DNA of 64,000 nucleotides from Bacteroidaceae bacterium. Lineage in GTDB: Bacteria; Bacteroidota; Bacteroidia; Bacteroidales; Bacteroidaceae. Every line of letters begins with the position of its first letter. Position 1 is the stretch's first letter. The notes under the pieces were generated by a model, which was given only the letters and a program-made list of their open reading frames with translations, ran no database searches and was not told the origin of the DNA. Below are positions 1 to 58,703 of this stretch, piece after piece. The DNA is taken from positions 1-64,000 of the forward strand of contig JAFUYT010000025.1 in assembly GCA_017470425.1 (NCBI GenBank), written 5' to 3'. The translations under genes were made by a program, and so were the position numbers.

Positions 1-270
1 AGCCTATGTCATCCTCTTCCTCTCAAGAGTACAAGGAAGTCCTCCCCCCCGTGGGGGGGAGAGCCGCAGAGCCTATGTCATCCTCATCCTCTCAAGAGTA
101 CAAGGAAGTCCTCCCCCCCGTGGGGGGGAGAGCCGCAGAGCCTATGTCATCCTCTTCCTCTCAAGAGTACAAGGAAGTCCTCCCCCCCGTGGGGGGGAGA
201 GCCGCAGAGCCTATGTCATCCTCATCCTCTCAAGAGTACAAGGAAGTCCTCCCCCCCACGGGGGGAGTTA
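1..270 (+). repeat. 69-bp tandem repeat, about four copies, in frame inside truA
   Basis: Units start at 6, 75, 144 and 213 with an exact 69-bp period (23 codons). Copies differ only by a few bases (for example tcttcc versus tcatcc), which indicates recent expansion. Each unit contains a strong GC palindrome, CTCCCCCCCGTGGGGGGGAG. The last unit has diverged (CACGGGGGG then AGTTAGAGAGG). The array continues off the left edge, so the copy number is a minimum. Confidence 0.95.
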
Positions 271-803: not shown

Positions 804-804
804 C

Positions 805-1776: not shown

Positions 1777-1786
1777 GGCACCGTCA

Positions 1787-1874
1787 CCCTCTATGGAGGG
1801 TACGCGATCCCTCTATAGAGGGTTTGCGCAGTCTCTATAGAGGGTTTGCGCGGACTCTGTAGAGGGGTATGCCG
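1787..1874. repeat. 22-bp tandem array, four units, palindromic core
   Basis: Units start at 1787, 1809, 1831 and 1853, an exact 22-bp step. The core is a palindrome, CCCTCTATAGAGGG in unit 2, followed by TTTGCGCA-like spacer. Units 1 and 4 are diverged (CTATGGAGGG, CTCTGTAGAGGGG). It lies between the EamA gene stop and the DUF3256 gene. Confidence 0.9.
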
Positions 1875-1936
1875 AGGCAATCATACAAGAGAATATACAG
1901 ATAGTAGAGCAATAGATCATACAAACAAAGGAAATC

Positions 1937-2545: not shown

Positions 2546-2891
2546 CTTGAGGGCGTACAAGGTGTTCCTTAGCCTCCTGTTGCTCATGCTTCCCTGCACC
2601 CTTGTGCAGGCTTCCATGTTGCGCCCGGACACCCTCGCCGTGCCCTGCGACACGGTTGTCGCTGCGGCCGACACGGCCTCGGCGGACTCCTCCTTGCGGC
2701 GGAGGGTGAAGGGTAGGGTAGAGCATCTGCGGGAAGAGTACAACATCGACAGCATCCATTCCATCCGCGACGTCGATAGCATCCTCGCCGTGAGATACCA
2801 GAGGACGGGAACCTACGACACCCTCTACCTCACACGCCCCACGCAGCGCTTCACGGCGCGCCTGCGCATCACCTACGGCCTCCGCTTCTGA
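2538..2891 (+). CDS. Short exported protein, resembles the N-terminus of a DUF4421-type protein
   Basis: The ATG at 2538 gives 117 residues: a signal peptide (MNSLRAYKVFLSLLLLMLPC...), a low-complexity linker rich in D, T and A, a basic segment (LRRRVKGRVEHLREEYNIDS) and DTLYLTRPTQRFTARLRITY. The last part looks like the start of the beta-barrel portion of DUF4421 outer-membrane proteins, but the gene stops there at a strong terminator. It may be truncated, or be a free-standing small protein. The upstream in-frame ATG at 2508 would destroy the signal peptide. The family assignment is tentative. Confidence 0.55.
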   Translation: MNSLRAYKVFLSLLLLMLPCTLVQASMLRPDTLAVPCDTVVAAADTASADSSLRRRVKGRVEHLREEYNIDSIHSIRDVDSILAVRYQRTGTYDTLYLTRPTQRFTARLRITYGLRF

Positions 2892-2934
2892 CAAAAAAAT
2901 CAGGACCTCCGTTGCTGGAGGTCCTGATTTTTTG
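2892..2934. terminator. Bidirectional intrinsic terminator
   Basis: The stem ATCAGGACCTCC / GGAGGTCCTGAT around a GTTGCT loop has an A-run on the left and a T-run on the right. It serves both the small exported protein gene (+) and rpmE2 (-). Confidence 0.9.
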
Positions 2935-2952
2935 GGGGGAGTCGTGAGGCGC

Positions 2953-3204
2953 TTACTTGCGGCTGCGAGCGTAGCGGCTCATGAACTTATCGACACGACC
3001 GGCGGTGTCAACGAGCTTGCTCTTACCAGTGTAGAAGGGGTGGGAGCTGGAGGAGATTTCCAGCTTGACGACGGGATAGGTCTCGCCTTCAAATTCCACC
3101 GTGTCGTTCGTCTTGGCGGTGGAGCGGCTCAGGAACATATCGCCATTGCTCATGTCCTTGAACACGACGGGGCGATAGTTGTCGGGATGAATACCTTGTT
3201 TCAT
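2953..3204 (-). CDS. rpmE2: 50S ribosomal protein L31, type B
   Basis: This 83-residue protein beginning [19 protein letters not shown] is the zinc-independent type B form of L31: it lacks the CxxC pairs of type A and keeps [20 protein letters not shown] and the basic tail [10 protein letters not shown]. It binds the 50S subunit near the central protuberance and bridges to the 30S. The ATG at 3204 was chosen because it gives the canonical N-terminus; the longer upstream reading frame is untranslated leader behind the promoter at 3290-3297. Confidence 0.97.
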
Positions 3205-3289
3205 TGTTTTGTTGAGTAGTTTAGCCGGGCTTGTGTACCGGCGGTGAATAATATCAGGGTTCTCGACCCTGCTTACTTGAATTGCGGCG

Positions 3290-3297
3290 CAAAAGTA
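3290..3297 (-). promoter_or_regulatory. rpmE2 promoter, -7 element TACTTTTG
   Basis: Minus-strand TACTTTTGC matches the Bacteroidetes -7 consensus TAnnTTTG. It implies a leader of about 80 nt before rpmE2. Confidence 0.7.
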
Positions 3298-3388
3298 GTG
3301 CTTTTCTCCGACGTGGCCAAACATTCCGCTCCTTTTTTTGCACTTTTTCTATTACATGCTATTTTATGTCAACAAAAAGAGCGGCTTT

Positions 3389-3420
3389 TTTGGCGGCTCT
3401 CAACTCTTTTGCTATCTTTG
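3389..3420 (+). promoter_or_regulatory. Promoter of the TonB receptor/nuclease operon
   Basis: TTTG at 3389-3392 and TATCTTTG at 3413-3420 are separated by 20 nt, the ideal Bacteroidetes primary-sigma spacing. The start codon at 3471 is 50 nt downstream. Confidence 0.8.
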
Positions 3421-3470
3421 CACCAATATTTATTCACAACATCACTTTACTAAAACAAAATCATTATCTC

Positions 3471-6182
3471 ATGACCAACAGGGTAAAGCTCGCGACTATG
3501 GCTTGGTGCTTGGCATCGGCTATGTTCGCACAGCAACCGCAAGGCACTGCTACCCCTAAGACCCCGGTTGACGATGATAACGCGGACTTCACCTTCACCG
3601 AGTCGCAGCTCGACGAGGGCGACGAGGCGACGACCGTGTCATCGCTGGTGGCCACCAAGACCGATCCCTATCTCTCGCGGGTCGGCTTCCTGTTCAGTCC
3701 CATGCGCTTCCGCGTCCGCGGTCTGGACAACCAGTACAACCAGACGTATCTGAACGGTATCATGTACAACGACGCCGAGCGCGGGCGCTTCAGCTACAGC
3801 ATGATAGGCGGCTTGAACCAGATTGTCAACCCCAACCGCGAGGGTGCCTCGGCCTTCGAGAACACCGTCTTCGGTCTCCCCGGCATCGGCGGTGCCACCA
3901 GTATCAACCTGCGTCCCGGCTCGCAGCGACAGGGCAACCAGCTCACGCTCTCCGGCTGCAACCGTAACTACGTGGCTCGTGCCGCCTACAGCTTTGCCTC
4001 CGGCTTCAACGCCAAGGGCTGGGCATTCTCGGGTGCCGTCGGTTACCGCTGGTCGAAGGAAGGCAACATCGAGGGTACGTTCTACAACTCGCTGAGCTAC
4101 TACCTCGGCGTGGAGAAGAAGCTGGGCGACCGCCACTCCTTCTCGCTCATCACCTTCGGCGCGCCCACGGAGCGCGGCCAGCAGGGCGCCAGCACCGAGG
4201 AAGCCTACTGGCTCGCCAACTCCCATTACTACAACCCCAATTGGGGCTATCAGGATGGGAAAAAGCGCAACAGCCGCGTCGTGCGCGACTACGAGCCCAC
4301 GGCCATCCTGACATGGGATTTCGACATCGACCAATATACCAAGCTCACGACCGCTGCAGGCTTCCGCTACTCCATGTACAGCGGCACGGCACTCGGCTGG
4401 AACGGCAACGCCGCCGACCCGCGTCCCGACTACTACAAGAACTTCCCCTCCAGCATCTTCAACGTCTATGACGATGAGCTGAACAACGAGGGCTATCTGG
4501 GACAGAACAAGTATTTCCTCGACCAGTGGCAGACGCTCTACGACTACTGGACTGCTGACAAGGCCAACCGCCAGGTGCAGTGGGACCGTATGTATGCCGT
4601 CAACCGCGCGGAGGCAGCCCGTAATGGTGAGACCCTCTACTACCAGGAGCGCCGCCACAACGACCAGCTGATGCTTAACCTCAGCTCCACGCTGAACCGC
4701 ACCATCGACCAGAGCAACAAGTACAGCCTCGGCCTCCAGTTCAACTCCACCAAGGGTATGCACTACAAGACGATGGCCGACCTGCTGGGCGGTGTCACCT
4801 ACTATGACTACGACAAGTTCGCCGCCAACGAGTACGGCAAGAGCAGCATCGAGGCCGAGAACGACCTCCGCAACCCGCACCGCCTCATCGGCGTAGGCGA
4901 TAAGTTCGGCTACGACTACAACATCCACGTCCACAAGGCACGCCTCTGGGGACAGTACCTCTTCCACCGCGGCATGTGGGACTTCTCGATGGCCGCCCAC
5001 GTGGATGGTACCGTCTTCGAGCGCGACGGCCTGATGCAGAACGGCCGTGCTCCCGAGAACTCCTACGGCAGCAGCGGATGGGCCAAGTTCCTGCATGGCG
5101 GCGGCCGCGCACGCCTGGCCTTCGACCCGACGCCGAACCACCGTATCTCCCTCTCCGGCAGCTGGGATAGCGAGGCGCCGATGCCCGCCAACAGCTTTGT
5201 GGCACCCCGTATCCAGAACAACTACATCAACAACCTCGACCTGGAGGACATCTTCAACGCCGAGCTCGCCTACGACTTCCGCTTCGGCATCTTCTCGGGT
5301 CGCATCGCCGGTTACTACACCTATTTTAATAATGGCGTAGAGCAGACCGCCTTCTACAACGACGACCAGTCGCGCTTCACCTACCTGACCATGAACGGCA
5401 TCCAGCGCGTGCACTACGGTCTCGAAGCCGCCTTCAACCTGCAGATCACCAACAGCCTCAGCGTCCATGTCCTCGGTACCATCTCCGAGGCCAAGTACGA
5501 CAACAATCCGTTGGCGCAGCTCGCCTACGAAGGCTCCGACGCTACCACCATTGCCAAGGTGAACCGCTGGGTGAACCCCGTCACGAAGCGCACTTCCAAG
5601 GATCCGCTCTGCGTGTATGCCGAAGGGATGCACATGAACGGCACGCCCCTCACCGCCCTCAATATCGGCGTGAACTACAACATCAAGGGATGGTACCTCG
5701 GTCTGGACCTCAACTACTACGACCGCGTCTATCTCGGCTTCTCGCAGTACCGCCGTCTGTCCAATGTCATGGCGCAGTACGTCGCCTCCGGCGTCGATGA
5801 GAAAGGGCGCCACCTCTTCCCCGACGTGGATGCCGAGACGCTCAAGAACGAAGGTGGCATCCTCTACGACCAGCAGGGGAACATCATCCATGCCTATTCC
5901 GCCAAACAGGAGAAGTTCGACGGCGGCTTCATGCTCGACGCCTCCATCGGCCACTCCTTCTACCTCCGCCACGGTCGCAGCTTGAACGTCAACCTGAGCC
6001 TCAGCAACCTACTGAATAATACGAACATGCGCACAAGTGGCTACGAGCAGAACCGCGACGATAACTACTACAACCTCGACGGTTCCGTCGGTGAGTCCAA
6101 GGCGTACAAGTTCTCCAAGAACCCCAAGTACTACTATGCGCAGGGCTTCAATTTCTTCCTGAATATCGGTTTCCGCTTCTAA
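3471..6182 (+). CDS. TonB-dependent outer-membrane receptor
   Basis: A 903-residue protein from ATG 3471 (MTNRVKLATMAWCLASAMFA signal peptide). After an acidic linker comes a plug domain (VGFLFSPMRFRVRGLDNQYN, TYLNGIMYNDAERGRFSYSM, GASAFENTVFGLPGIGGATS), then a long beta-barrel rich in aromatic residues that ends in the outer-membrane signature FNFFLNIGFRF. There is no carboxypeptidase-like N-terminal domain and no SusD partner, so it is not a classical Sus system. It is the first gene of an apparent operon with two lipoproteins and two nucleases, which suggests import of nuclease products (oligonucleotides, nucleosides or phosphate). That substrate is inference from context. Confidence 0.88.
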   Translation: MTNRVKLATMAWCLASAMFAQQPQGTATPKTPVDDDNADFTFTESQLDEGDEATTVSSLVATKTDPYLSRVGFLFSPMRFRVRGLDNQYNQTYLNGIMYNDAERGRFSYSMIGGLNQIVNPNREGASAFENTVFGLPGIGGATSINLRPGSQRQGNQLTLSGCNRNYVARAAYSFASGFNAKGWAFSGAVGYRWSKEGNIEGTFYNSLSYYLGVEKKLGDRHSFSLITFGAPTERGQQGASTEEAYWLANSHYYNPNWGYQDGKKRNSRVVRDYEPTAILTWDFDIDQYTKLTTAAGFRYSMYSGTALGWNGNAADPRPDYYKNFPSSIFNVYDDELNNEGYLGQNKYFLDQWQTLYDYWTADKANRQVQWDRMYAVNRAEAARNGETLYYQERRHNDQLMLNLSSTLNRTIDQSNKYSLGLQFNSTKGMHYKTMADLLGGVTYYDYDKFAANEYGKSSIEAENDLRNPHRLIGVGDKFGYDYNIHVHKARLWGQYLFHRGMWDFSMAAHVDGTVFERDGLMQNGRAPENSYGSSGWAKFLHGGGRARLAFDPTPNHRISLSGSWDSEAPMPANSFVAPRIQNNYINNLDLEDIFNAELAYDFRFGIFSGRIAGYYTYFNNGVEQTAFYNDDQSRFTYLTMNGIQRVHYGLEAAFNLQITNSLSVHVLGTISEAKYDNNPLAQLAYEGSDATTIAKVNRWVNPVTKRTSKDPLCVYAEGMHMNGTPLTALNIGVNYNIKGWYLGLDLNYYDRVYLGFSQYRRLSNVMAQYVASGVDEKGRHLFPDVDAETLKNEGGILYDQQGNIIHAYSAKQEKFDGGFMLDASIGHSFYLRHGRSLNVNLSLSNLLNNTNMRTSGYEQNRDDNYYNLDGSVGESKAYKFSKNPKYYYAQGFNFFLNIGFRF

Positions 6183-6186
6183 TTAA

Positions 6187-7125
6187 ATGTACACGCGTAT
6201 GAATAAGTATATGATCCTGGCGGCAACCGTTCTCGCCGCACTCTCTTTCACCGCCTGCATGGACGAAACCGATGAGCCGCCCGTGGATGCAGATCCCGGC
6301 ATCTACAGCCTCACGTCGGTGGGCGAGGTCAACACGACCATCGCCGACCTGAAAGTGAAATACCGCACCAAGATGACTGCCAACAACACCTACCAGAAGG
6401 TGCTCGATGATCAGGTCTTCGAGGGCACCGTCGTGGGTAACGACATCACCGGTAACCTCTACCAAAAGCTCTGCCTGAGCGAGCTGACACCCGATGGAAA
6501 GGTGCAGAGCATCTATCTGAATATCAAGTGCACGAACCTCTTCTCCTACTTCCCCCTCGGCACGACGGTGCGCGTGAACCTGAAGGGGTTGTGGATTGGC
6601 AACTACGGTTATGTGCCCACCATCGGCACACCCTATAAGACCAGCCAGGGCAATATGCGCCTGGGTGTCATCCTCCTGCAAGACTGCCGCACCCATGTGC
6701 AGATCGTGGAGGGTCCCGACGACGCCACGAAGGAGCAGCTCCTGACACCCACGAAGGTCGATGCCACATGGCTGGGCAGTGCTGCTAACAAAAATGTGAA
6801 CAACACGCCCATGCTGGCGACCGTGGAGGGAGTCTTCACCGAGGCCGACGGCGAGCGCATCTTCACGCCCAACGTCTCGGAGGCCGAAGACCCGCTGAAC
6901 GGCTACGATGCCGGCTACGCCCGCAACAGAACCCTCAAGGTGGGTAGCCAGAAGATCCTCGTCCGCACTTCCACGCGCAACGAGATCTCCACGACCATCA
7001 TCCCCTCCGGGAAGGTGCGCCTGACGGGCATCCTCACCTATTACGGCTCCGACTGGCAGTTCCAGATGCGCGACCTGGGAGACCTCGTCGTCTTAGAGGA
7101 GCAGCCCAACGCCACCCAACAATAA
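6187..7125 (+). CDS. DUF5689-family surface lipoprotein
   Basis: A 312-residue lipoprotein with lipobox LSFTAC near residue 24; the ATG at 6199 (MNKYMILAATVLAALSFTAC) is an equally good start. Residues about 45-280 match the DUF5689 pattern, an OB-fold-like beta domain (FEGTVVGNDITGNLYQKLCL ... VRVNLKGLWIGNYG ... VRLTGILTYYGSDWQFQMRD). It starts 4 nt after the receptor gene. DUF5689 proteins are usually found beside secreted nucleases in Bacteroidetes, so binding of nucleic acid at the cell surface is plausible but unproven. Confidence 0.8.
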   Translation: MYTRMNKYMILAATVLAALSFTACMDETDEPPVDADPGIYSLTSVGEVNTTIADLKVKYRTKMTANNTYQKVLDDQVFEGTVVGNDITGNLYQKLCLSELTPDGKVQSIYLNIKCTNLFSYFPLGTTVRVNLKGLWIGNYGYVPTIGTPYKTSQGNMRLGVILLQDCRTHVQIVEGPDDATKEQLLTPTKVDATWLGSAANKNVNNTPMLATVEGVFTEADGERIFTPNVSEAEDPLNGYDAGYARNRTLKVGSQKILVRTSTRNEISTTIIPSGKVRLTGILTYYGSDWQFQMRDLGDLVVLEEQPNATQQ

Positions 7126-7169
7126 CTCATTCATCTTTCGTTCAATCGTAAATATACAAGATACATATT

Positions 7170-8663
7170 ATGAAAAAGTATTTTTCTATCCTGATGGCGC
7201 TGGCAGTGTTTGCCTTTACCGCTTGTGTGGATGTGCCCGAGCCCTACGGCATCAATGCGGGTAATATCGCTGATGAAGAGGAGGTTATCATCCTGCCTGC
7301 CGGTAGCGGAACAGTTGCTGATCCCTACAACGTGGCGGGTCTGATACAGGCCGTGGCTAACCTGCCCGCGGGACAGAACTGGCCCACGGAGGTGGTCGTG
7401 AAAGGCATCGTCTCGCAACTCAAGAACGACCTCAACCCCGATTATGGCAACCTGTCCTACTATATCTCCGACAACGGCAAAACCACTGAGCAGTTTTATG
7501 TCTATCGCAGCTTGGGACTGAACAAGGAGAAGTTCACTGCCGACGAGCAGGTGCAGCTGGGCGATGTCGTCGTTGTGCAGGGTACCGTGACCAACTACAA
7601 CGGTACGCTGGAGTTTGTCCAGAACCAGAGTTGGCTGCTCTCCACCACCAACACCTATTCGGGTGGCGGCGAGACCGTGGATATCCTCGGCGATGTCACC
7701 TTCTACGAGAACGCTTTCGACGGCGCACTGGGTGACTTTACCACGAACAATGTCAAGCTGCCCGGCACTTCTTCGTATGTCTGGACGGGCGACAAGACCT
7801 ACCACTGCGCGAAGGCCTCCGGCTACGTGGGCGGTTCTACGCAGGAGTCTGAGGGATGGCTCATCTCCCCGAGCATCAACCTGAAGAAGGCCACAGAGGC
7901 ATACCTCACCTTCGATCACGATTGCAGCAAGTTCAATGTCGATGCCTCCCAGCAGGTCTTCGTGAAGGCCAAGAGCGAGAACGACCGCGAGTGGACCGTG
8001 CTGCCCGTCGAGGAATATCCCAGCGGCAAGTTCGTCACTATCGCCAACATCAACCTCTCCGACTTCGTGGGCACGAAGGTGCAGATTGCCTTCCAATATA
8101 CCAGCAGCACCGCTTCCGCCGGCACGTGGGAGGTGAAGAACTTCAAGGTCACCGGTTATGGCGAGAAGGGCATCAATGGCATCACCTGGGAGGACTTCTC
8201 GAACGGACAGTTCGACTACTGGGAGGCTGATGACGCGACGCCTACGGGATGGCAGGAAGATGCCACTAAGGGCAATGCCAAGCTCTCCAAGTCCGAAGAC
8301 TGCTACAGCCGCAGCTATAGTGTGTGCATCGAGGGTGTGGCGCTCGGCGAGCGTCGTCTGGCTTACAAGGAACTCTACTTCGAGCCCGGCACCTACACTT
8401 GCTCCTTCTATGCCAAGGCCGCTCTCTATGAAGGTCGTGTGCAGGCCGGCTACTGGCCGCAGGGCGCTGCCGCTGCCATCTATGACAAGGATGCCACGGG
8501 GGCTAATATCCGTACCGACGTGACTGGCCGTGACTGGACGAAGATCACCTACTCCTTCACCATCGAGGAGACGGTGCCTGTGGCCCTCATCGTGGCAGTG
8601 CCCACAGGCAGCAAGGACAAGAACGTCCTCGTCGATGACTTCACTATCACCAAGAACCAATAA
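7170..8663 (+). CDS. OB-fold / choice-of-anchor J surface lipoprotein
   Basis: A 497-residue lipoprotein (MKKYFSILMALAVFAFTACV, Cys near residue 19). Residues about 45-165 form an OB-fold-like domain (VVVKGIVSQLKNDLNPDYGN ... VQLGDVVVVQGTVTNYNGTL), then a jelly-roll domain of the choice-of-anchor J type (GWLISPSINLKKATEAYLTF ... WEVKNFKVTG), then a second carbohydrate-binding-like jelly roll (residues about 340-497) ending in VLVDDFTITKNQ. It probably works with its neighbours in capturing substrate at the surface. No catalytic residues are recognised. Confidence 0.75.
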   Translation: MKKYFSILMALAVFAFTACVDVPEPYGINAGNIADEEEVIILPAGSGTVADPYNVAGLIQAVANLPAGQNWPTEVVVKGIVSQLKNDLNPDYGNLSYYISDNGKTTEQFYVYRSLGLNKEKFTADEQVQLGDVVVVQGTVTNYNGTLEFVQNQSWLLSTTNTYSGGGETVDILGDVTFYENAFDGALGDFTTNNVKLPGTSSYVWTGDKTYHCAKASGYVGGSTQESEGWLISPSINLKKATEAYLTFDHDCSKFNVDASQQVFVKAKSENDREWTVLPVEEYPSGKFVTIANINLSDFVGTKVQIAFQYTSSTASAGTWEVKNFKVTGYGEKGINGITWEDFSNGQFDYWEADDATPTGWQEDATKGNAKLSKSEDCYSRSYSVCIEGVALGERRLAYKELYFEPGTYTCSFYAKAALYEGRVQAGYWPQGAAAAIYDKDATGANIRTDVTGRDWTKITYSFTIEETVPVALIVAVPTGSKDKNVLVDDFTITKNQ

Positions 8664-8667
8664 GACT

Positions 8668-9603
8668 ATGAACAGGAATCGCACATATTGGGGCTTTGCC
8701 GCCTTGGCCGTGGTTGCCGTGTCGATGGCGTTTGTCGCCTGCGACAACGACGATGACCGCTATGACATGCCCTCCGACGTGGTGTGGCGCAGCTCCGGCA
8801 AGGCTGCAGGGGCCATCATCACGACCCCCTATGAAGAACGCATCGAGGTGCCGGCGCGCAAGGCCGGGAACACCTTCGTGGCGCATACCGTGCAGTTCGG
8901 CGGTCACGAGGTGATGAACTTCTGCGTGGAGTACGACCCCAACCAGATGCACTCCCGCTGGGTCGCCTTCCGCTTCGACGGCGACACGCGGCAGCGCAAC
9001 GTCTCGCGCAGCAACGAACCCTTTGCCGACGACCCCAAGCTGCCCTCCAGCATGAGGATCGGCTCCGGCACCTTCGGCTGGCCCTACAGCCGCGGCCACC
9101 TCGTCGCCTCCGCTGACCGCCTCTTCTCGCAGGAGGCCAATGAGCAGACGTTCTATATGTCGAACATGAGTCCGCAGATCAGCAATTTCAATGCTCCGTA
9201 CTGGTCGCGCCTGGAGAACATCGTGCAGAACCACGGCCACAACAGCTCCTTCGCCGACACCCTCTATGTCGTCAAGGGCGGTTACATCGACGATGACATG
9301 GATCTCCTCGGCTGGCAATCGCGCGGCAATGGCAAGAGCGTGGCTGTGCCCGGACATTATTTCATGGCGCTCCTGCGCGTGAAGGGGGCCTCCTACAACA
9401 GCATCGCCTTCTGGATTGAGCACAAGGACTATGGCTACGATGACGACGTCGCCGTGCCCAAGACCGTCTTCCAGGACAACCACCAGATCGTCTCGGTGGA
9501 TGAGCTGGAGCAGCTCACCGGCATCGACTTCTTCCACAACCTGCCCGATGACATCGAGACCAAGGTGGAGGCCGAGTATTCCGTAGGACTGTGGATGAAC
9601 TAA
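8668..9603 (+). CDS. DNA/RNA non-specific endonuclease (NucA/EndA type), lipoprotein
   Basis: A 311-residue lipoprotein with lipobox VSMAFVAC. The beta-beta-alpha-metal nuclease signature is present as YSRGHLVASADRLFS (the RGH motif with the catalytic His) followed by YMSNMSPQISNFNAPYWSRL, which contains the metal-binding Asn. The family cleaves single- and double-stranded DNA and RNA using Mg2+. The lipobox places it on the outer membrane, probably surface exposed. It starts 4 nt after the upstream gene. The first position of the classical DRGH motif is Ser here, a common Bacteroidetes variant. Confidence 0.92.
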   Translation: MNRNRTYWGFAALAVVAVSMAFVACDNDDDRYDMPSDVVWRSSGKAAGAIITTPYEERIEVPARKAGNTFVAHTVQFGGHEVMNFCVEYDPNQMHSRWVAFRFDGDTRQRNVSRSNEPFADDPKLPSSMRIGSGTFGWPYSRGHLVASADRLFSQEANEQTFYMSNMSPQISNFNAPYWSRLENIVQNHGHNSSFADTLYVVKGGYIDDDMDLLGWQSRGNGKSVAVPGHYFMALLRVKGASYNSIAFWIEHKDYGYDDDVAVPKTVFQDNHQIVSVDELEQLTGIDFFHNLPDDIETKVEAEYSVGLWMN

Positions 9604-9676
9604 AGCCCCCCGCTCGGCCCAAAGGGACGCTCGACCCTTCGAGAACCCCTCCCCTAAGGGAGGGGAGTAGGAGCAG
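9604..9676. repeat. Intergenic CCCCTCCC/GGGAGGGG palindromic element
   Basis: Contains ACCCCTCCCCTAAGGGAGGGG (about 9646-9666, core CCCCTCCC ... GGGAGGGG) preceded by CTCGACCCTTCGAG, itself a short palindrome. It fills most of the 99-nt gap between the two nuclease genes. Confidence 0.75.
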
Positions 9677-9702
9677 GGAAAAATATTAAAGGAATCGCAA
9701 AC

Positions 9703-10797
9703 TTGAATCTTATGAAGTATAATAAAGTTACCTCGCGCCAGCTTCTCCCCTCCCTCACGGGAGGGGTACGGGGGTGGGTCTTTTTCCTCCTCTCCCTCCT
9801 CTGTCTCCCGCTGGCTGCACAGGAAGGTCGGATCGGCATGTACGCCATCGGTTTCTACAATCTGGAGAACCTCTTTGACACCCAGCACGACGAAGGCAAG
9901 AACGACTACGAGTACCTGCCCGATGGCGCCAACAAGTGGAGCGAGCTGAAATACACGCATAAGCTGAAGAACATGTCGCAGGTGCTCTCCGAGATGGGCA
10001 CCGACCGCCTGCGCACCGGCTGCGCCATTATCGGCGTCAGCGAGGTGGAGAACGCCCACTGCCTCACCGACCTCTGCGCACAGGAACCCCTCGCCAAGCG
10101 CGGAATCCAGTTCGTGCACATCGAAGGTCCGGACAACCGCGGTGTCGATTGCGGCCTACTGTACAATCCCCGTTTCTTCACGCCGGCGAAGGTGTGGCTG
10201 CAACCCTACGTGCTGAAGGAGGAAATCAATTCACGGCCCACCCGCGGCTTCCTCACCGTGCAGGGCACACTGGCGGGCGACAGCATCACCGTCATCGTCT
10301 GCCACTGGCCCAGCCGCTTCGGCGGCTCACCGCTGCGTGAGTGGGCGGGTGAGCAGGTGAAGGTCGAGAAGGACAGCATCCTCCGCGCCAACCCGGAGAT
10401 GAAAGTCCTCGTCATGGGCGACATGAACGATGACCCCTTCAGCCCCTCGATGGCCAAGTCGCTGAGCGCGCGCCGCAAGATGGCCGACGTCAAGGCCGGC
10501 GATATGTTCAATCCCTGGTGGCAGATCCTCCTCGACGGCCGTGGCACGCTGAAGTACAACGGCAACTGGAACCTCTTCGATCAGATCGTGATGTCGCCCG
10601 GATGCATCAAGGGTGTGCCCGATAAGGACTACACATCGCTGACCTTCTACAAGGCTGAGATCTTCACCCGCGACTACCTCTTCCAGGATGGCGGCAAGTA
10701 CAAGGGCAACCCGAAGCGCACCCACGCTGGCGGTGTCTGGCTCGACGGCTACTCCGACCACCTCCCTGTCGTGACTTACTTTGTCAAGAGGCAATAG
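9703..10797 (+). CDS. Exported endonuclease/exonuclease/phosphatase-family protein
   Basis: A 364-residue protein (or 361 from the ATG at 9712) of the EEP (DNase I/exonuclease III) fold. Motifs in order: IGFYNLENLFD (metal-binding Asn and Glu region), GVSEVEN, DCGLLYNP, VCHWPSRFGG, VMGDMNDDPF (catalytic D-x-N) and YSDHLPVVTYF (catalytic Asp-His). The signal peptide is unusual: the hydrophobic core FFLLSLLCLPLAAQ follows a stretch, SRQLLPSLTGGVRGW, encoded by a palindromic repeat. The protein probably hydrolyses nucleic acid or phosphodiesters in the periplasm or outside the cell, together with the upstream nuclease. Confidence 0.88.
   Translation: MNLMKYNKVTSRQLLPSLTGGVRGWVFFLLSLLCLPLAAQEGRIGMYAIGFYNLENLFDTQHDEGKNDYEYLPDGANKWSELKYTHKLKNMSQVLSEMGTDRLRTGCAIIGVSEVENAHCLTDLCAQEPLAKRGIQFVHIEGPDNRGVDCGLLYNPRFFTPAKVWLQPYVLKEEINSRPTRGFLTVQGTLAGDSITVIVCHWPSRFGGSPLREWAGEQVKVEKDSILRANPEMKVLVMGDMNDDPFSPSMAKSLSARRKMADVKAGDMFNPWWQILLDGRGTLKYNGNWNLFDQIVMSPGCIKGVPDKDYTSLTFYKAEIFTRDYLFQDGGKYKGNPKRTHAGGVWLDGYSDHLPVVTYFVKRQ
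9741..9782. repeat. Palindromic element within the signal-peptide codons of the EEP nuclease
   Basis: CTCCCCTCCCTCACGGGAGGGG-type core (about 9747-9766) lies in frame between the charged and hydrophobic parts of the signal peptide. It is the same class as at 1456, 9646 and 13999. Confidence 0.75.
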
Positions 10798-10869
10798 AGG
10801 CTATGAGGCTATAGAAGCTATAGATATCCGAGGTAACCCTAGATATCCGAGATACCCTAGAGAGGCTAA
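10796..10869. repeat. Degenerate 9-bp ladder downstream of the nuclease operon
   Basis: The sequence divides into 9-mers such as TAGAGGCTA, TGAGGCTAT, AGAAGCTAT, TAGATATCC and GAGATACCC. It occupies the start of the 203-nt gap before fba; the rest holds the fba promoter and an AT-rich leader. Confidence 0.6.
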
Positions 10870-10924
10870 GATTAAAAAAAGCTAAACTTTTTTCCTTAAT
10901 CCCTTCCTTCTAAGCTTTTTTAGC

Positions 10925-10932
10925 TACCTTTG
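10925..10932 (+). promoter_or_regulatory. fba promoter, -7 element TACCTTTG
   Basis: TACCTTTG fits the Bacteroidetes -7 consensus. No clear TTTG is seen at -33. The 5' leader from 10966 to 11000 is a 7-bp AT-rich ladder (AATAGTT, AACTGTA, AATCATT, AAATTGT). Confidence 0.7.
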
Positions 10933-11000
10933 CACACCCTAAGAGGAAATCTTTGTTAGAAATAAATAGTTAACTGTAAATCATTAAATTGTAATTCAAA

Positions 11001-11999
11001 ATGACAAGCTACAAAGAACTGGGTTTGGTGAACACCCGTGAAATGTTCAAGAAAGCTGTGGCTGGTGGCTATGCCATCCCCGCCTTCAACTTCAACACGA
11101 TGGAGCAGATGCAGGCTATCGTGCAGGCTGCCGTAGAGACCAAGTCTCCCGTCATCATGCAGGTCAGCAAGGGCGCCCGCAACTATGCCAATGGCACCAT
11201 CCTTCGCTACATGGCTCAGGGTGCTGTGGAGTATGCCAAGGAGCTCGGTTGCCCCAATCCTCAGATCGCTCTGCACCTCGACCACGGTGACAGCTTCGAG
11301 ATCTGCAAGGAGTGCATCGACAATGGTTTCTCCAGCGTGATGTTCGACGGCAGCGCTCTCCCCTACGAGGAGAACATCGCCATCACCAAGAAGGTTGTGG
11401 AGTATGCCCACCAGTACGACGTCACCGTTGAGGCTGAGCTCGGCGTGCTCGCCGGTGTCGAGGACGACGTCGTGGCAGAGAAGAGCCACTACACCCGTCC
11501 TGAGGAGGTCGTGGACTTCAGCACCCGCAGCGGTTGCGACAGCCTCGCCATCTCCATCGGTACCAGCCACGGTGCTTACAAGTTCACTCCCGAGCAGTGC
11601 ACCCGCGACCCGAAGACCGGCAAGCTCGTGCCTCCTCCCCTCGCTTTCGACATCCTGCATGAGATCGAGAAGCGCATCCCCGGCTTCCCCATCGTGCTCC
11701 ACGGCTCCAGCTCCGTGCCCCAGGACGAGGTCGATACCATCAACGCTTTCGGCGGCAAGCTGCCCGATGCAGTAGGTATCCCCGAGGAGCAGCTGCGTGA
11801 GGCTTCCAAGAGCGCTGTCTGCAAGATCAACATCGACTCCGACAGCCGTCTGGCCATGACCGCTGCCATCCGCAAGTACCTCGCTGAGAACCCCGGTCAC
11901 TTCGATCCCCGTCAGTATCTGAAGCCCGCCCGCGAGAGCATGAAGAAGATGTACATCCACAAGATCGTGAATGTCCTCGGCTCCAACGACAAGCTCTAA
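11001..11999 (+). CDS. fba: Class II fructose-1,6-bisphosphate aldolase
   Basis: A 332-residue zinc-dependent aldolase of glycolysis/gluconeogenesis that interconverts fructose-1,6-bisphosphate and glyceraldehyde-3-phosphate plus DHAP. The class II pattern is intact: AIPAFNFNTMEQMQAI, LHLDHGDSFE (catalytic Asp94, zinc-ligand His95), VEAELGVLAG (zinc-ligand Glu), GTSHGAYKF (zinc-ligand His) and VLHGSSSVP (zinc and phosphate site). Codon use is strongly biased and the gene has its own promoter and terminator, as expected for a highly expressed single-gene unit. Confidence 0.97.
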   Translation: MTSYKELGLVNTREMFKKAVAGGYAIPAFNFNTMEQMQAIVQAAVETKSPVIMQVSKGARNYANGTILRYMAQGAVEYAKELGCPNPQIALHLDHGDSFEICKECIDNGFSSVMFDGSALPYEENIAITKKVVEYAHQYDVTVEAELGVLAGVEDDVVAEKSHYTRPEEVVDFSTRSGCDSLAISIGTSHGAYKFTPEQCTRDPKTGKLVPPPLAFDILHEIEKRIPGFPIVLHGSSSVPQDEVDTINAFGGKLPDAVGIPEEQLREASKSAVCKINIDSDSRLAMTAAIRKYLAENPGHFDPRQYLKPARESMKKMYIHKIVNVLGSNDKL

Positions 12000-23305: not shown

Positions 23306-25399
23306 ATGAAATACCGTCAATATGTAGTATTGCTGAAAGAGTCATTCTTTGCAGCAGTCGTTGTCTTCTTCACGTTGAACGCAAATGCACAGGCACCACA
23401 GGAAATGTTCTATATATGTCGAGGCAATGTGGAAGAAATGGCAGTCTTTAATAGAACAACTGTTGACAGTATTGTTTTTGCTGATGACCATGCAGGCGGG
23501 AGATTCTATATTTATATGCGAGACAGTGTTTGCGGATTTCCTATTGTAGGCGTTGACAGTATCGTCTTCAGAACAGATTATGTTGGCGAGACAATGGGAT
23601 GGAGTAGAAAGAATCCCATCTCCTTCGCTCAACCCTCGTGTGCGCTGGTGAATATCACGGGTATCTCGGAAATGCCTGAAAGGAAAAACACAAATGCTTC
23701 TGCTTGGATGGAGGTATGGGACGGGTATGGTCATTACTTCAAGAAGAAGGTCGTCCTGGATATGCAGGGAAATAGTTCAGGTGCCTTTCAGAAGAAGAAT
23801 TTTTCAGCGGATTTCTATGAGGCGGATGGAAAGACACCCACTGACATCCGCATCGGTGACTGGGTCGCGCAGGATAGCTACCATTTCAAGGCTTTTCACA
23901 CCAGTATTACAAAGGGAGAATGTCCTGTTAGTTACCACCTCTATGATTTGTTCCTCGCAACCAAGCCTGTCAACCAGCGGGCACCCTATATGGATTATGC
24001 GCCGGGGGAGTGGATGGAGTATGAAGAGAGTGTTGCGGAGAGGGGCTTTGCCCGCTGTTACCCCGCTGGATTCCCATGTGTGGTCTATCTGAACGGTCAG
24101 TTCTATGGCATCTTCAGCTGGCAGTTGAAGAAGCATCGCGACAACTTCAATATGGGACGGAACAATGCAGACCATATCTGCCTGGATGGCAATGTCGGAC
24201 CGAATGACATTTGGAACGGAACCGTCAAATGGAGTAGTTTCGAGGTGCGTAATCCGAAACCAAAGGAAGGTAAATGGATATTGACAGACGTAAATGGCAA
24301 TCCTTATGACGGTAATTATCCGAAGGAGTTGTTGGGTGCAGACAGTCCCATATATGACCCGACAAACAGCAGCCATGTGAATACGGCACGAACCAAGAAT
24401 CATATCCTCGCGCTAAGCCGTTATATGTCAGAGATCGCAGTCTTTGAAAAGGCCTATTCCGAGGCATCGACTGCGGAGAAGGCTACAGCCCTCGCGAGTG
24501 TTAAGAAAGAAATCGAGAAACGGTTCTCGATGGAATGGATGATAGACTTTGTCCTGCTCGCCAATATTGTAGGAAACGGTGACGTCATAGATAAGAACTG
24601 TCAATGGACGACATGGGGTGAGCTGGATGGGACGGTCAGATGGTACGTCAATCCGTATGATATCGATGTGGCCTTTGGCGTCAATGCCACCACGGCCTTC
24701 TGGTTCTACGACTCTGGAAAATCTGAGATCGGAAACGGAAGTAGTACTCCCCTGCGATATGTATGGGCATATTACAGGGATGAGATGAAGGCCAGATACA
24801 CAGAGTTACGGACTGCAGGTGTCATCAGTTACGAAACAATCTTCGGCTTGTTGAAAGACTGGTGGGATAGAGTCGGCGAGGAGAACTACGCCAAAGAGGC
24901 CGGGAAATGGCCGGAGATGCCCTGCAACAGAGATGATGGCATCTCGGAGAACTGGAGCTACACAGGAAAATACTATATCACCTTCTGGGGACTGGAAAGC
25001 AATTGGACAACGACCTCCACGTATGCAGAAGGGAGTTTTTGTAAGTACAAGTATCGGTGCTACAAGTCGCTTCGCCCTGATAATAGGGGGCACTTGCCCA
25101 ACGAAGAGAATTCAGTCTGGTGGCAAGACATGAGTATCAAGCCGGGGATTTACCATACGGGCGATCTTGTGTACGACGGGCGTTGCAATTATTATCAGTT
25201 TCGGGCTCTGAAGGATGTGGAAGTCATAGAGAACCCGCTCTCCTTGAACAGGATGGATCACTTACAGGGAGCGCCGTTTGATAAATTCTATTCTTGCTAT
25301 CCTTATGAGGGGGGTGTTCATGACAGCTTGGAGCGGTTGAGTGAATGGGTCAAGCGTAAAATCATATCTACAGATGAACAGATGAACTATCAGAGATGA
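23306..25399 (+). CDS. CotH kinase-like exported protein
   Basis: A 697-residue protein with signal peptide (about 1-28, ...LNANA). CotH-family blocks are recognised: KKVVLDMQGNSSGAFQKKNF (about 148-167), SYHFKAFHTSITKGECPVSY, CVVYLNGQFYGIFSWQLKKH and the acidic WYVNPYDIDVAFG (about 445). The C-terminal part has two aromatic segments resembling chitin-binding CBM5/12 modules (YAEGSFCKYKYRCYKSLRPD, YHTGDLVYDGRCNYYQFRAL). CotH proteins in spore formers are atypical kinases; their role in Bacteroidetes polysaccharide loci is unknown. The gene is clearly AT-richer than the rest of the locus, suggesting acquisition. Confidence 0.82.
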   Translation: MKYRQYVVLLKESFFAAVVVFFTLNANAQAPQEMFYICRGNVEEMAVFNRTTVDSIVFADDHAGGRFYIYMRDSVCGFPIVGVDSIVFRTDYVGETMGWSRKNPISFAQPSCALVNITGISEMPERKNTNASAWMEVWDGYGHYFKKKVVLDMQGNSSGAFQKKNFSADFYEADGKTPTDIRIGDWVAQDSYHFKAFHTSITKGECPVSYHLYDLFLATKPVNQRAPYMDYAPGEWMEYEESVAERGFARCYPAGFPCVVYLNGQFYGIFSWQLKKHRDNFNMGRNNADHICLDGNVGPNDIWNGTVKWSSFEVRNPKPKEGKWILTDVNGNPYDGNYPKELLGADSPIYDPTNSSHVNTARTKNHILALSRYMSEIAVFEKAYSEASTAEKATALASVKKEIEKRFSMEWMIDFVLLANIVGNGDVIDKNCQWTTWGELDGTVRWYVNPYDIDVAFGVNATTAFWFYDSGKSEIGNGSSTPLRYVWAYYRDEMKARYTELRTAGVISYETIFGLLKDWWDRVGEENYAKEAGKWPEMPCNRDDGISENWSYTGKYYITFWGLESNWTTTSTYAEGSFCKYKYRCYKSLRPDNRGHLPNEENSVWWQDMSIKPGIYHTGDLVYDGRCNYYQFRALKDVEVIENPLSLNRMDHLQGAPFDKFYSCYPYEGGVHDSLERLSEWVKRKIISTDEQMNYQR

Positions 25400-25458
25400 T
25401 TTTCACTGCCTTTGAACAAATAATCGTGAGATTTCTTGGGGGTTACCGTGAAAAGGCT

Positions 25459-25466
25459 TATTTTTG
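25459..25466 (+). promoter_or_regulatory. Promoter of the Rpn-like gene, TATTTTTG
   Basis: TATTTTTGCG lies 26 nt upstream of ATG 25492 and supports that start over the in-frame ATG at 25396. Confidence 0.65.
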
Positions 25467-25491
25467 CGCAGAAACAAGATACGAAGCGTTT

Positions 25492-26412
25492 ATGAATGTA
25501 GAAAATAAATATATCCGATTCGACTGGGCCGTGAAGCGGATGTTGCGCGACAAGGCTAATGCTGCCGTACTCGAGGGGCTCATCACGGTGCTACTCGGAC
25601 AGAAGGTGACCATCGTCGAGATCCTTGAGAGCGCTTCTGATGATGAATATGACACAATCCGTGACGTTCAAGATTATAGAAATAGAGTATGTTGCATAAT
25701 CCAAGAAAACGATAAAGGTTTAGCAATTGCGGAAATCCATTTTATCCGTAGGCTATACTATTATGAACGCATCCTCTACGGAGTGGCCAAGACGCTGACG
25801 GAGCACATCCAGCTCGGACGTCTGTACAACGAGGTGAAGAAGGTGTATCACATTAGTATCATCTACTTCGACCTCGGACAAGGGGCGGACTATCTCTACC
25901 ACGGGCAGACGAAGTTCATCGGCGTACACACCCACGACGAACTCCGCGTGAACACCAAGGAGGAGCGCCTGATTCAGATGAAGACACCGGCTCAGGTGTT
26001 CCCCGAGTATTTCATCATCCGCGTGAATGAATTCAATGACGTGGCGACAACGCCCTTGGAAGAATGGCTCGACTATCTCAAGAACGGCTACATCCGCGAT
26101 GACACCACCACGCCTGGCCTCCAGGAAGCAAGGGCAAAGCTACAGGTAATGACCATGAGTCCCGCAGACCGCCGTGCCTACGACCGTCACCTCGATGCCA
26201 TCATGGTACAGGAGGATGTCCTCTCGACCGCCAAAATCGAGGGACGCGCAGAAGGCCGTGCAGAAGGCCGTGCAGAGGGCCGTGCAGAAGGCCGTGCGGA
26301 AGAAAAAATAGAGGCTGCCCGCAAGATGAAGGAACTTGGCCTGACGGCCGATGTCATCGCGCAAGTTACAGGATTGACCCCAGAACAGATTGCTCCGCTT
26401 TCCGCGTCGTGA
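25492..26412 (+). CDS. Rpn/PD-(D/E)XK-family transposase-like protein, active site altered
   Basis: A 306-residue protein starting MNVENKYIRFDWAVKRMLRD, typical of the Rpn (PDDEXK_2) family; LYYYERILYGVAKTLTEHIQ, VYHISIIYFDLG and FPEYFIIRVNEFND are also family landmarks. Family members normally read F-N-R-V-D-I/L before the E-I-Q strand, whereas here the segment is YRNRVCCIIQENDKGLAIAEIH, so the conserved Asp position holds Cys and EIQ is EIH; nuclease activity may be lost. The tail carries five EGRA-type repeats and a degenerate HTH-like end (MKELGLTADVIAQVTGLTPE). It stands alone within the polysaccharide locus with its own promoter. Confidence 0.82.
   Translation: MNVENKYIRFDWAVKRMLRDKANAAVLEGLITVLLGQKVTIVEILESASDDEYDTIRDVQDYRNRVCCIIQENDKGLAIAEIHFIRRLYYYERILYGVAKTLTEHIQLGRLYNEVKKVYHISIIYFDLGQGADYLYHGQTKFIGVHTHDELRVNTKEERLIQMKTPAQVFPEYFIIRVNEFNDVATTPLEEWLDYLKNGYIRDDTTTPGLQEARAKLQVMTMSPADRRAYDRHLDAIMVQEDVLSTAKIEGRAEGRAEGRAEGRAEGRAEEKIEAARKMKELGLTADVIAQVTGLTPEQIAPLSAS
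26239..26298 (+). repeat. 12-bp coding tandem repeat (EGRA) in the Rpn-like gene
   Basis: Five units of GAAGGCCGTGCA (with GAGGGACGCGCA first) encode repeated Glu-Gly-Arg-Ala. Such charged repeats near the C-terminus are frequent in this family and prone to slippage. Confidence 0.9.
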
Positions 26413-26413
26413 T

Positions 26414-26677
26414 GGCTGTGCTCGCTGGCTGCAGAGCAGTTCCACGCATGGAACTGCCTTGAAGCACGCTTGGTTTGACGCGTAAGCTCGCGAGGTTAAG
26501 GGCATAAGCTCGCGAGCTTATGGGCGAAAGCACGCGAGGTTATGGACGTAAGCACACGGGGTGCCGAGCGATAGTCCACGAGGTGAAGAGAAAGAACTCG
26601 TGAGATGAAGGCTAAAAACTGGGCGACTTTTAGGAAAAAGCTGGACGGCTTTTCAGAAAAAATAGACGTGTTTTTGG
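26414..26677. repeat. 22-bp tandem array, about 12 degenerate units
   Basis: The array starts next to the Rpn-like stop codon and steps every 22 bp: 26414, 26436, 26458, 26480 and so on to 26656. The central consensus is near GCGTAAGCTCGCGAGGTTAG. Unit 26502 holds a perfect 20-nt palindrome, CATAAGCTCGCGAGCTTATG, and unit 26436 is GCAGTTCCA-CGCA-TGGAACTGC. Similarity decays towards the right-hand end, where units are A/T-rich. It is non-coding, since the period is not a multiple of three and no long frame crosses it. The remaining gap to 26994 holds an inverted repeat and a promoter. Confidence 0.88.
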
Positions 26678-26743
26678 TTGAAACGGGTGCGAACGGGGGG
26701 GCTGGAAGCGCCGAAATCCGCCGTTTCCATCACCAATCACCCC

Positions 26744-26807
26744 TTTCTCTCACCGTTCCCTCACTGGATTCTCCTGATAATCAAACCGTGTGAGGGAATG
26801 AGAGAAA
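26744..26807. repeat. Interrupted inverted repeat upstream of the AAA-nuclease gene
   Basis: Arms TTTCTCTCA + TTCCCTCAC and GTGAGGGAA + TGAGAGAAA pair perfectly apart from a 3-nt bulge (CCG), with a 25-nt loop. It could be the 3' hairpin of the upstream transcript, but it lacks a T-run. Confidence 0.65.
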
Positions 26808-26854
26808 AAGAAGGGCAAAAATTATTTGTAGAGACAATATGTCTGAGTTATTTT

Positions 26855-26885
26855 TTTGTCACTTCACAGAAAAGCGCTATCTTTG
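26855..26885 (+). promoter_or_regulatory. Promoter of the AAA-nuclease gene
   Basis: TTTG at 26855-26858 and TATCTTTG at 26878-26885 are 19 nt apart, a consensus match. The leader before ATG 26995 is about 105 nt. Confidence 0.8.
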
Positions 26886-26994
26886 TGCCGAAATAGAAAG
26901 CAAGGTATCACCTACGACCGCCAGACGAAGGTGCACACGTGTAGGATTGATACGATGCACATGGATAATATGACAATGAAAGAAGATAGGTCGC

Positions 26995-28596
26995 ATGGAA
27001 AGGTTCTTTAATACGGCGGGTCCCAACAACCCGGAAGATAGTTATACGATTGATCCTCTGAGCCGTTTTGACTTGGATGACATTCTCATGCTCATACGCC
27101 AGAAAAAGTACTTCGTGCTCCACGCTCCCCGGCAGACGGGTAAGACATCTTGTATGCTCGCTCTGCGCGACTATCTGAACAAGGAGGGCGACTACATCGC
27201 GGTGTATGCCAACGTGGAAGGCGGGCAAGCATCGCGCAACGACAAGATGACGGTCGTGAAATCAACCGTGGATACTTTGACAGGGGAGATTTCGTTGATA
27301 CTCAAGAATAATAAGGCCGAAGTTGTCCGTGATGCAGTGCAAGAGATGGGTGCAGATTCTATGCTCTCTCAGTTCCTGTCCCTCCTCTGTCAGTCCTTGG
27401 AAAAGCCTTTGGTGCTGATTCTCGATGAGATAGATGCTTTGGTCGGCGACTCCTTGGTTGCTGTGCTTCGCCAGATTCGTTCGGGCTATGCCAACCGCCC
27501 TGCAGCCTTTCCGCAGACGATCATCCTGTGCGGTGTACGCGATGTGCGCGATTATCGCATTGTGCTCTCAAACCAGGATATCGTCACGGGCGGTTCGGCC
27601 TTCAACATCAAAGCAGAGTCGTTGCGGCTCGGCAACTTCACTAAGGAAGAGATACATGAGCTCTATATGCAGCACACCCGTGAGACGGGACAGGAGTTCG
27701 ACGAGGCCTGCTTCCCGATGGTGTGGGATGCCACCGAAGGACAGCCCTGGCTGGTGAATGCCTTGGCATATGAGGTGACATGGAAGATGAAGGAAAACCG
27801 CGACCGCAGCATCCGCATCATACCGGAAATGATCTATCGCGCTCAGGAGCGCATCATCTACCGCAGAGACACACACATTGACATTCTGATATACAAGCTA
27901 CAAGAACCAAGGGTGAAACGTGTCATTGAGCCCATCCTCGCCAATAGCGAGGAAGCCGATGAGGGCCTTATTCCCAGTGATGATGTACTCTATGTTCAGG
28001 ATATGGGGCTGATTGCGGTCGAGAGAGGCAAGCCGCGTCGTATCGCCAATGGTATCTATCGGGAAATTATACCACGCGAGTTGACATGGAGTACACAGGA
28101 TTCGTTGGTACAGCAGCCGCAATGGTATCAGCGCCCCGATGGTCGCATCGATGTGGAGAAACTGCTGTTGGATTTCCAGCAATTCTTCCGCCAGAACTCC
28201 GACTCATGGATTCAGAAGTTCGACTACGCCGAGGCTGGCCCGCAACTGCTTCTACAGGCGTTCCTGCAGCGCATCGTCAATGGCGGTGGCTATATTGACC
28301 GTGAATACGGTCTTGGCCGTAAGCGTACCGACCTGCTTATTCGCAAGCCTTTGACAGAGGGCTATGGCGGCCCGGTTCAGCGTGTAGTACTTGAGCTGAA
28401 AATCAAGCGCGAAGCGCTGGAAACAGTGATTGAAAAAGGTTTGCAGCAGACGGCAGAGTATATGGATCTCGTGGGCGCTGTAGATGAGGGGCACCTCATC
28501 ATCTTCGACCGATCCAATGAGAAGACATGGGAAGAGCGCATATGGCATCGTTCTTATGATTATCAAGGCCGCACCATTGTGGTGTGGGGTATGTAG
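26995..28596 (+). CDS. AAA-type ATPase with C-terminal PD-(D/E)XK nuclease-like domain
   Basis: A 533-residue protein. An N-terminal strand (MERFFNTAGPNNPEDSYTID) precedes Walker A HAPRQTGKTS (residues 43-52) and Walker B LVLILDEID (about 140), followed by sensor-like ILCGVRDVRDYR. Residues about 420-530 resemble a PD-(D/E)XK fold: YGLGRKRTDLLIRKP then VVLELKIKRE (E-x-K) and GHLIIFDRS. Such AAA_35-like/nuclease fusions are widespread in Bacteroidetes, and a defence or mobile-element role is often suspected but not shown. It ends 3 nt before the WbsX gene although its ancestry differs from the polysaccharide genes. Confidence 0.8.
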   Translation: MERFFNTAGPNNPEDSYTIDPLSRFDLDDILMLIRQKKYFVLHAPRQTGKTSCMLALRDYLNKEGDYIAVYANVEGGQASRNDKMTVVKSTVDTLTGEISLILKNNKAEVVRDAVQEMGADSMLSQFLSLLCQSLEKPLVLILDEIDALVGDSLVAVLRQIRSGYANRPAAFPQTIILCGVRDVRDYRIVLSNQDIVTGGSAFNIKAESLRLGNFTKEEIHELYMQHTRETGQEFDEACFPMVWDATEGQPWLVNALAYEVTWKMKENRDRSIRIIPEMIYRAQERIIYRRDTHIDILIYKLQEPRVKRVIEPILANSEEADEGLIPSDDVLYVQDMGLIAVERGKPRRIANGIYREIIPRELTWSTQDSLVQQPQWYQRPDGRIDVEKLLLDFQQFFRQNSDSWIQKFDYAEAGPQLLLQAFLQRIVNGGGYIDREYGLGRKRTDLLIRKPLTEGYGGPVQRVVLELKIKREALETVIEKGLQQTAEYMDLVGAVDEGHLIIFDRSNEKTWEERIWHRSYDYQGRTIVVWGM

Positions 28597-58695: not shown

Positions 58696-58703
58696 TTTTA
58701 ATC

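Follow-up and report, generated by a model that had tools for sequence, protein, structure and literature searches.

Among described bacterial repeats, the closest in layout to those reported here is BrickBuilt of Porphyromonas gingivalis, a 23-nt intergenic minisatellite with a leader and a tail, which occupies 19 places in one strain, is built of imperfect units, has reported promoter activity and, in the available part of its description, carries no transposase remnant inside (PMC4596501). It is a single sequence family, represented in both P. gingivalis and P. gulae (PMC4596501). REP palindromes offer a second comparison; in the excerpted account, their partners lie 1-5 or 20-100 bp apart at no fixed pitch, they bear a GTAG/CGTC tag, and they have a RAYT partner (PMC3733652).

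The locus considered here lies in a stretch of 64,000 nucleotides, called the window, from a Bacteroidaceae bacterium (GenBank assembly GCA_017470425.1, contig JAFUYT010000025.1, positions 1 to 64,000, forward strand). Below, G000 is this source genome, other G-numbers are other genomes, and L-numbers are stretches examined. Like BrickBuilt, the locus is an intergenic tandem array of one short period and imperfect units, and an earlier note on this DNA, which knew of no described element of this kind, put the matter too strongly given the similar layout of BrickBuilt (PMC4596501). The unit is 22 bp and not 23, and the accessible portion of the BrickBuilt account holds neither palindromic units nor a period common to unrelated sequences (PMC4596501). 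With REP elements the arrays share short, clustered intergenic palindromes in many copies, in families that differ between species, and they are unlike REP in their fixed 22-bp pitch (PMC3733652). Neither GTAG nor CGTC is present in the consensus of the CTCGCGAG family. No match to the Y1 transposase family PF01797 was found in G000, whose assembly is 72% complete, or in G070, which is 97% complete and has arrays; 62 of 139 genomes of the genus have some match, and four Y1 proteins of relatives score far under the RAYT model cut-off. A RAYT/REP system as the driver was not supported. Two of the five Y1 loci examined adjoin a 22-bp array; in L187 (1083-1299, G292) and L188 (1024-1234, G013), arrays of 8-9 units lie about 200 bp or less from IS200-like Y1 genes.

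Plasmid iterons are repeats that bind proteins and follow one another in tandem at intervals of about two helical turns; they are few in number and located at replication origins together with a Rep gene. The term '22-bp tandem repeats' does occur in the plasmid literature, but the present arrays, unlike iterons, are dispersed over the chromosome, and no Rep initiator family was found among the 20 flanking proteins scanned. An origin in phages or plasmids was rejected because no similar array was found in 72,556 plasmids searched and no match in 50,697 phages. Three viral contigs matched strict patterns, two of them with just one palindrome pair. In L220 (7588-7719), a 34.7-kb contig from a viral collection that is possibly a host fragment, a 22-bp array of the type seen in G398 lies between two long ORFs. 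MatP/matS, SlmA and Noc use single dispersed palindromic sites of one conserved sequence, each bound by a dimer; dispersed palindromes are a shared feature, whereas here they form tandem arrays of changing sequence. CRISPR arrays combine cas genes with near-identical repeats and unique spacers; such repeats and spacers are unlike the degenerate units and 8-bp spacers described below. A literature search of titles and abstract openings, with subscription journals mostly outside its reach, returned no 22-bp pitch common to unrelated palindromes.

The array in the window

The 22-bp periodicity of positions 26414-26677, first noticed from the sequence alone, is real. Identity at lag 22 is 0.591, the highest of lags 3-79 (lag 66, 0.485; lag 44, 0.477), compared with a mean of 0.259 (sd 0.028, maximum 0.351) at lag 22 in 2000 dinucleotide shuffles of the same segment, in which the best identity at any lag was 0.410. 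Successive adjacent 22-mers from 26414 match at 9, 10, 11, 19, 18, 14, 14, 12, 9, 15 and 12 of 22 positions, with no phase slip. Of the twelve units originally proposed, eleven are secure and keep register from 26436 to 26677, while the putative first unit, 26414-26435, is marginal (9/22 identity to the next). Tandem Repeats Finder (TRF, minimum score 30) saw the array only as the pieces 26480-26562 and 26614-26662.

The secure array begins with an edge unit at 26436-26457, a palindrome GCAGTTCCACGCATGGAACTGC with 20 of 22 bases in dyad, whose 22-bp phase relative to the CNCGCGNG centres is exact; its GTTCCANGCNTGGAAC occurs 9 times in the genome, against none for the reversed control. There follow, at 26458-26567, five units of the AAGCTCGCGAGSTT family, each a 14-bp palindrome plus an 8-bp spacer, the first of them degenerate. 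The unit at 26502-26523 also has a dyad of 20/22 bases, and this unit and the edge unit are indeed the two strong palindromes remarked on before. The 22-bp register continues through 26568-26677 in five degenerate units, and in the alignment with a copy on contig C19 they end in AAAAGCTGGACGGCTTTT-type palindromes.

The array is flanked by two plus-strand genes that we regard as neighbours only: an Rpn-like PD-(D/E)XK gene at 25396-26412 (PF12784; NCBIfam TIGR01784 slightly under cut-off) and an AAA-like ATPase gene at 26995-28596. Between the array and the latter lies an inverted-repeat edge module of about 75 bp (26739-26814) with TTCYCTCAC / GTGAGRGAA half-sites, whose arms fold (z -4.0); hairpin models hit it weakly, at scores under their cut-offs. 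The window also holds an unrelated 22-bp array at 1796-1883, with palindrome CCCTCTATAGAGGG (dyad test p 0.013), and two unrelated 22-bp repeats placed consecutively at 58645-58776, the second with GGAATGATTATTCC; the detected segment 58620-58721, taken whole, gave no dyad signal (p 0.94). Other repeats in the window are one of 12 bp at 26248-26302, which encodes EGRA close to the C-terminus of the Rpn-like protein, and, at the window edge (1-265), a tandem repeat with a 69-bp unit, 3.8 copies and 97% matches.

Copies of the family in the same genome

When the array was compared by BLAST with the 2.4-Mb, 36-contig assembly, 35 matches were obtained at 17 places including that of the window, in agreement with the expectation that such arrays would be present elsewhere in the genome. 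Two of these places belong to a pair of contigs that agree fully over 19.9 kb, which leaves 16 independent places, 15 besides the window. The assembly holds redundant or duplicated contigs: L018 and L019 are 100% identical over 19.9 kb, L086 and L093 show the same arrays, and window positions 45-10376 are 99.96% identical over 10.3 kb to L092 9669-20000 (G000:C31), on two contigs. Sixteen stretches around family places were taken and printed in register. They show AAGCTCGCGAGSTT-type units, often bordered on one side by a single GTTCCAYGCRTGGAAC-like unit, together with other palindromes that share the register, for example TGTCTCACGCGTGAGACA, GTTTTATCACGCGTGATAAAAC and AAGGATGCATCCTT. The pattern CWCGCGWG-N14-CWCGCGWG occurs 49 times in G000, against 0 for its control. 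Family matches were found in one of the 40 relatives searched, G013, of the same genus. L086 also contains, at 10528-11873, AT-rich blocks with 11-bp repeats of CATAAATTA type, several of them consecutive.

The genomic surroundings of the copies are diverse. Flanking proteins include AraC, a DEAD-box helicase, SusD, GlyA, HisS, an outer membrane efflux protein, GNAT, FeoB, NrdD and HipA, among which SusD and others point to Bacteroidota; 20 were scanned, two of which had no family, and the flanks of L009 and L024 lay outside the scan. Many arrays are outside ORFs, and several overlap ORFs of at least 80 aa that are possibly spurious. One array lies behind a gene that we take, from its C-terminus, to be SecA; behind that gene no array was found in any of 29 relatives, where over 300-420 bp there is neither a CNCGCGNG core nor a lag-22 identity as high as 0.40. 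A stretch of 182 bp (about 8 units), starting from the GTTCCA palindrome, is common to the window and C19:18953 at 88% identity with unrelated flanks. Arrays have thus been copied as blocks to new places, as shown for this one pair, and probably grow by duplication of units.

Related copies of the edge module at 26739-26814, with its TTCYCTCAC half-site, were found by BLAST at 4 further places. GTGAGRGAA half-sites number 20 in 13 kb near arrays, compared with 3 in 714 kb elsewhere, and lie within 300 bp of 6 of the 16 arrays; modules on both sides in inverted orientation are present at L010 and L020 only (2/16 arrays). Dispersed TTCYCTCAC inverted-repeat modules were also noted beside arrays in the window, L010, L018, L020, L022, L023, L079 and L075. 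In some places the module is followed by a promoter-like TTTG...TATCTTTG. The edge modules resemble the leader and tail of BrickBuilt as given in the available description (PMC4596501).

Period 22 across species and genera

From 16 other species of the genus we sampled 20 stretches, each of 20 kb and arbitrarily placed. Outside ORFs of at least 90 aa, lag 22 was the highest of lags 5-60, and 21 period-22 segments were detected in 11 of the 16 species, compared with 0-7 at each other period from 15 to 30 and an average of 0.05 in shuffled gaps. The sequences of the arrays differ between species; within one species a palindrome may recur, as in three arrays of L107. The signal in G000 itself is weaker: its 19 arbitrary stretches (duplicated contigs included; L079 was left out as it had been chosen for a GTTCCA site) yielded 8 segments of period 22 as against 12 of period 23 and 3 of period 21; lag 22 (z 2.0) did not rank first. 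With each own-genome array taken at its best period, 28 fall at 22 and 4 at 23.

The pattern CWCGCGWG-N14-CWCGCGWG was found in 11 of 251 genomes, representing 4 of 30 genera. The reversed pattern GWGCGCWC-N14-GWGCGCWC, intended as a null, matched in four genomes belonging to three other genera, with counts of 218, 129, 102 and 54; the loci inspected proved to be real arrays, built of different palindromes. In the family, four genera besides that of G000 have 22-bp palindrome arrays of their own. Arrays consist of TAGGTGCGCTCCTA plus 8 bp in G398, of AAGGTGTACACCTT followed by CGAGCGCTCG in a single register in G340, and of the palindrome AGTGCGCACT in G374, while G292 has CTGAGCGCTCAG arrays and also a 9-unit array. 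In G419, of a further genus, there are 37 CTCGCGAG pairs, and 400 kb yielded 13 segments at 22, 8 at 23 and 6 at 21; these neighbouring counts make the preference for 22 weaker there. Clustering of sites in part of the G419 chromosome suggested a macrodomain, an idea set aside on finding degenerate arrays of the same family elsewhere; GC content may explain the clusters. Beyond the family, 16 other families of the order gave 1 period-22 segment in 258 kb (20 stretches, two all N) and other orders gave 2 in 276 kb (14 stretches), that is, the preference is absent from these sampled stretches.

Comparison between species thus shows the palindrome replaced and the 22-bp layout kept. The earlier statement that period is better conserved than sequence holds in the window, between species and between genera, and with it the argument that the arrays require either that spacing is selected or that some specific process generates it.

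Dyad symmetry, core and spacer

Dyad symmetry was tested by permuting columns, with period and composition kept. In arbitrary stretches of other species, 14 of 22 arrays reached p < 0.05 (Fisher 7e-17) and 8 did not (p >= 0.05), four of them with p > 0.4. In G000, the same level was reached by 6 of 7 arrays from arbitrary stretches and 2 of 5 other arrays in selected stretches, compared with 1 of 3 controls. A wider survey took each array at its best period between 10 and 40. At period 22, 24 of 28 own arrays were dyad-symmetric (selected and arbitrary, mostly of the selected family, with the duplicates L092 and L093 kept), as were 17 of 26 in other species (including 6 chosen G013 stretches). 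The corresponding figures were 8/59 own and 13/47 other-species arrays at periods other than 11 and 22, 5/23 and 0/2 at period 11, and 7/42 for controls. Of eight 21-bp arrays in other species, five were dyad-symmetric, three of these belonging to one G013 family. Dispersed 21-bp dyad-symmetric arrays with ATAAAACTATTTTCA-like units occur in this sister species in L120 (15663), L124 (6647) and L127 (12189).

The palindromic core and the spacer evolve at different rates. In own arrays, adjacent units mismatch at 0.197 in columns 5-18 and at 0.436 in the other eight (97 pairs, Fisher 3e-31), a contrast computed on pairs with at least 12/22 identical bases, lower ones being dropped, at loci chosen by similarity to the window array and with the phase set by the core; information per column agrees with it. 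A weaker contrast was seen in 28 other arrays, which are conserved at 0.65 around the stronger dyad axis and at 0.56 around the weaker (21/28 higher, p 3e-4); it is partly circular, because those columns also served to choose the stronger axis. Dyad mates covary in 130 distinct units: pairing is 0.559 against 0.502±0.009, and double changes number 142 against 99±8, levels reached in 0 of 500 shuffles, which ignore relatedness among family loci that share descent. The mutual information of dyad mates also exceeds that of other column pairs (p 0.027).

The register extends to unlike palindromes. With a search pattern widened to the variants seen, 11 loci combine GTTCCA-type units with CNCGCGNG centres; the 22-bp phase between the two is exact at 8 of these loci and out by 1 bp at the other 3. 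The loci share descent and are hence not independent. In L163 and L171, from another genus, GTGTACAC and GAGCGCTC units are in phase. Unlike palindromes also pair at 33 and 55 bp in excess over other distances, the pattern that a second dyad axis at 11 bp would give; a spacing test restricted to strict palindromes had too few pairs. In 17 arrays with a sense strand assigned from ORF calls (at least 4 other tandem-gap arrays were left out), non-complementary dyad pairs are G·T in 105 cases and A·C in 102 (p 0.89), and this lack of a G·T excess indicates a dyad kept in DNA and not as an RNA hairpin. Gaps that hold arrays are tandem in 15 cases, divergent in 4 and convergent in 2, of 85, 25 and 24 such gaps, and no preference for a gene arrangement was seen among them. 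A preference for 3' ends, hinted at by the CTCGCGAG loci, was discarded because unselected arrays did not bear it out.

Possible explanations

We tentatively prefer, at somewhat less than even confidence, to see the arrays as series of sites for a putative dimeric DNA-binding factor, set two helical turns apart and spreading as blocks. The unit of the window family is a 14-bp palindrome AAGCTCGCGAGSTT plus a spacer fixed at 8 bp in length and free in sequence, and a putative dimer on each palindrome would sit beside its neighbours. Supercoiled DNA in cells has about 11 bp per turn; 22 bp thus amount to two turns, which would place the factors on one helix face. Candidate roles of the bound factor would be chromosome organisation, local regulation or insulation. 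Several observations count against binding sites: the weaker lag-22 signal of the own genome, the lack of a significant dyad in 8 of 22 other-species arrays, and the want of a preferred gene arrangement or a conserved place. Moreover, different palindromes are present in one genome and even in one array, and one protein would not bind them all. The many palindromes per genome and the unconserved places also argue against one simple operator and make a selfish composite repeat a serious rival. According to this rival, which we consider somewhat unlikely, the array is the interior of a dispersed, MITE-like element comparable to BrickBuilt, bounded by edge modules, moved by a transposase in trans and devoid of host function. 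The 182 bp shared at 88% identity between unrelated flanks, the unconserved places (0/29 relatives behind SecA), the concentration of GTGAGRGAA half-sites near arrays (6/16) and the inverted modules on both sides of L010 and L020 are all in its favour. However, no more than 2 of 16 arrays have such two-sided modules, neither fixed ends nor a terminal repeat or target duplication were established, the 72% complete G000 and the array-bearing, 97% complete G070 gave no Y1 transposase match, and a 22-bp period common to unrelated sequences would be left unexplained.

An unlikely explanation is a neutral satellite produced by replication, in which hairpin-templated slippage or template switching lengthens palindromes by 22 nt at a time and mends imperfect dyads, no binding protein being involved. 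Such a process would account for dyads that persist whatever the sequence and in a strand-symmetric manner, for the second dyad axis at 11 bp, and perhaps for our impression that the motif composition of G419 tracks local GC. Slippage should spread periods. The prominence of 22 over 21 and 23 in other species, together with the register between unlike palindromes, argues against plain slippage; in addition, the core columns vary at under half the rate of the spacer columns, and the preference is missing from the sampled outgroups. Arrays of RNA hairpins, such as multi-hairpin terminators or 3' stabilisers of mRNA, are very unlikely. Three arrays have strong predicted folds (z -4.3, -5.1 and -8.1) and several CTCGCGAG arrays lie close behind gene ends, but G·T pairs are not in excess over A·C in the 17 arrays, convergent gaps are not in excess, 4 array-holding gaps are divergent, and 26300-26900 contains no Rfam family at gathering score (four weak hits only, to microRNA models far under their cut-offs). 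Finally, the periodic stretch begins directly after the stop codon of the Rpn-like gene, behind which the earlier note had placed it. A functional link with this nuclease gene is scarcely credible, as none of the 19 other flanking proteins scanned has an Rpn domain and the other copies adjoin GlyA, HisS, FeoB, NrdD and a SecA gene, among others.

Returning to binding sites, it is tempting to speculate further, although we think it rather unlikely, that palindromic sites are laid out genome-wide on a 22-bp ruler while the site sequence turns over fast, as an architectural or insulating DNA-binding system that co-evolves with its own repeat. The shared spacing and changing sequence hint at such a molecular ruler; the system would be comparable to a fast-evolving eukaryotic satellite and its binding protein.

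Significance

Within a family of tandem repeats it is usually the sequence that is shared and the period that varies. In these arrays a period is common to unrelated sequences across species and genera, which requires either a process that measures 22 bp or selection on spacing. Neither would be expected in the intergenic DNA of bacteria. If the arrays are binding sites, the genomes that carry them would be predicted to encode a factor that reads dyads spaced at 22 bp.
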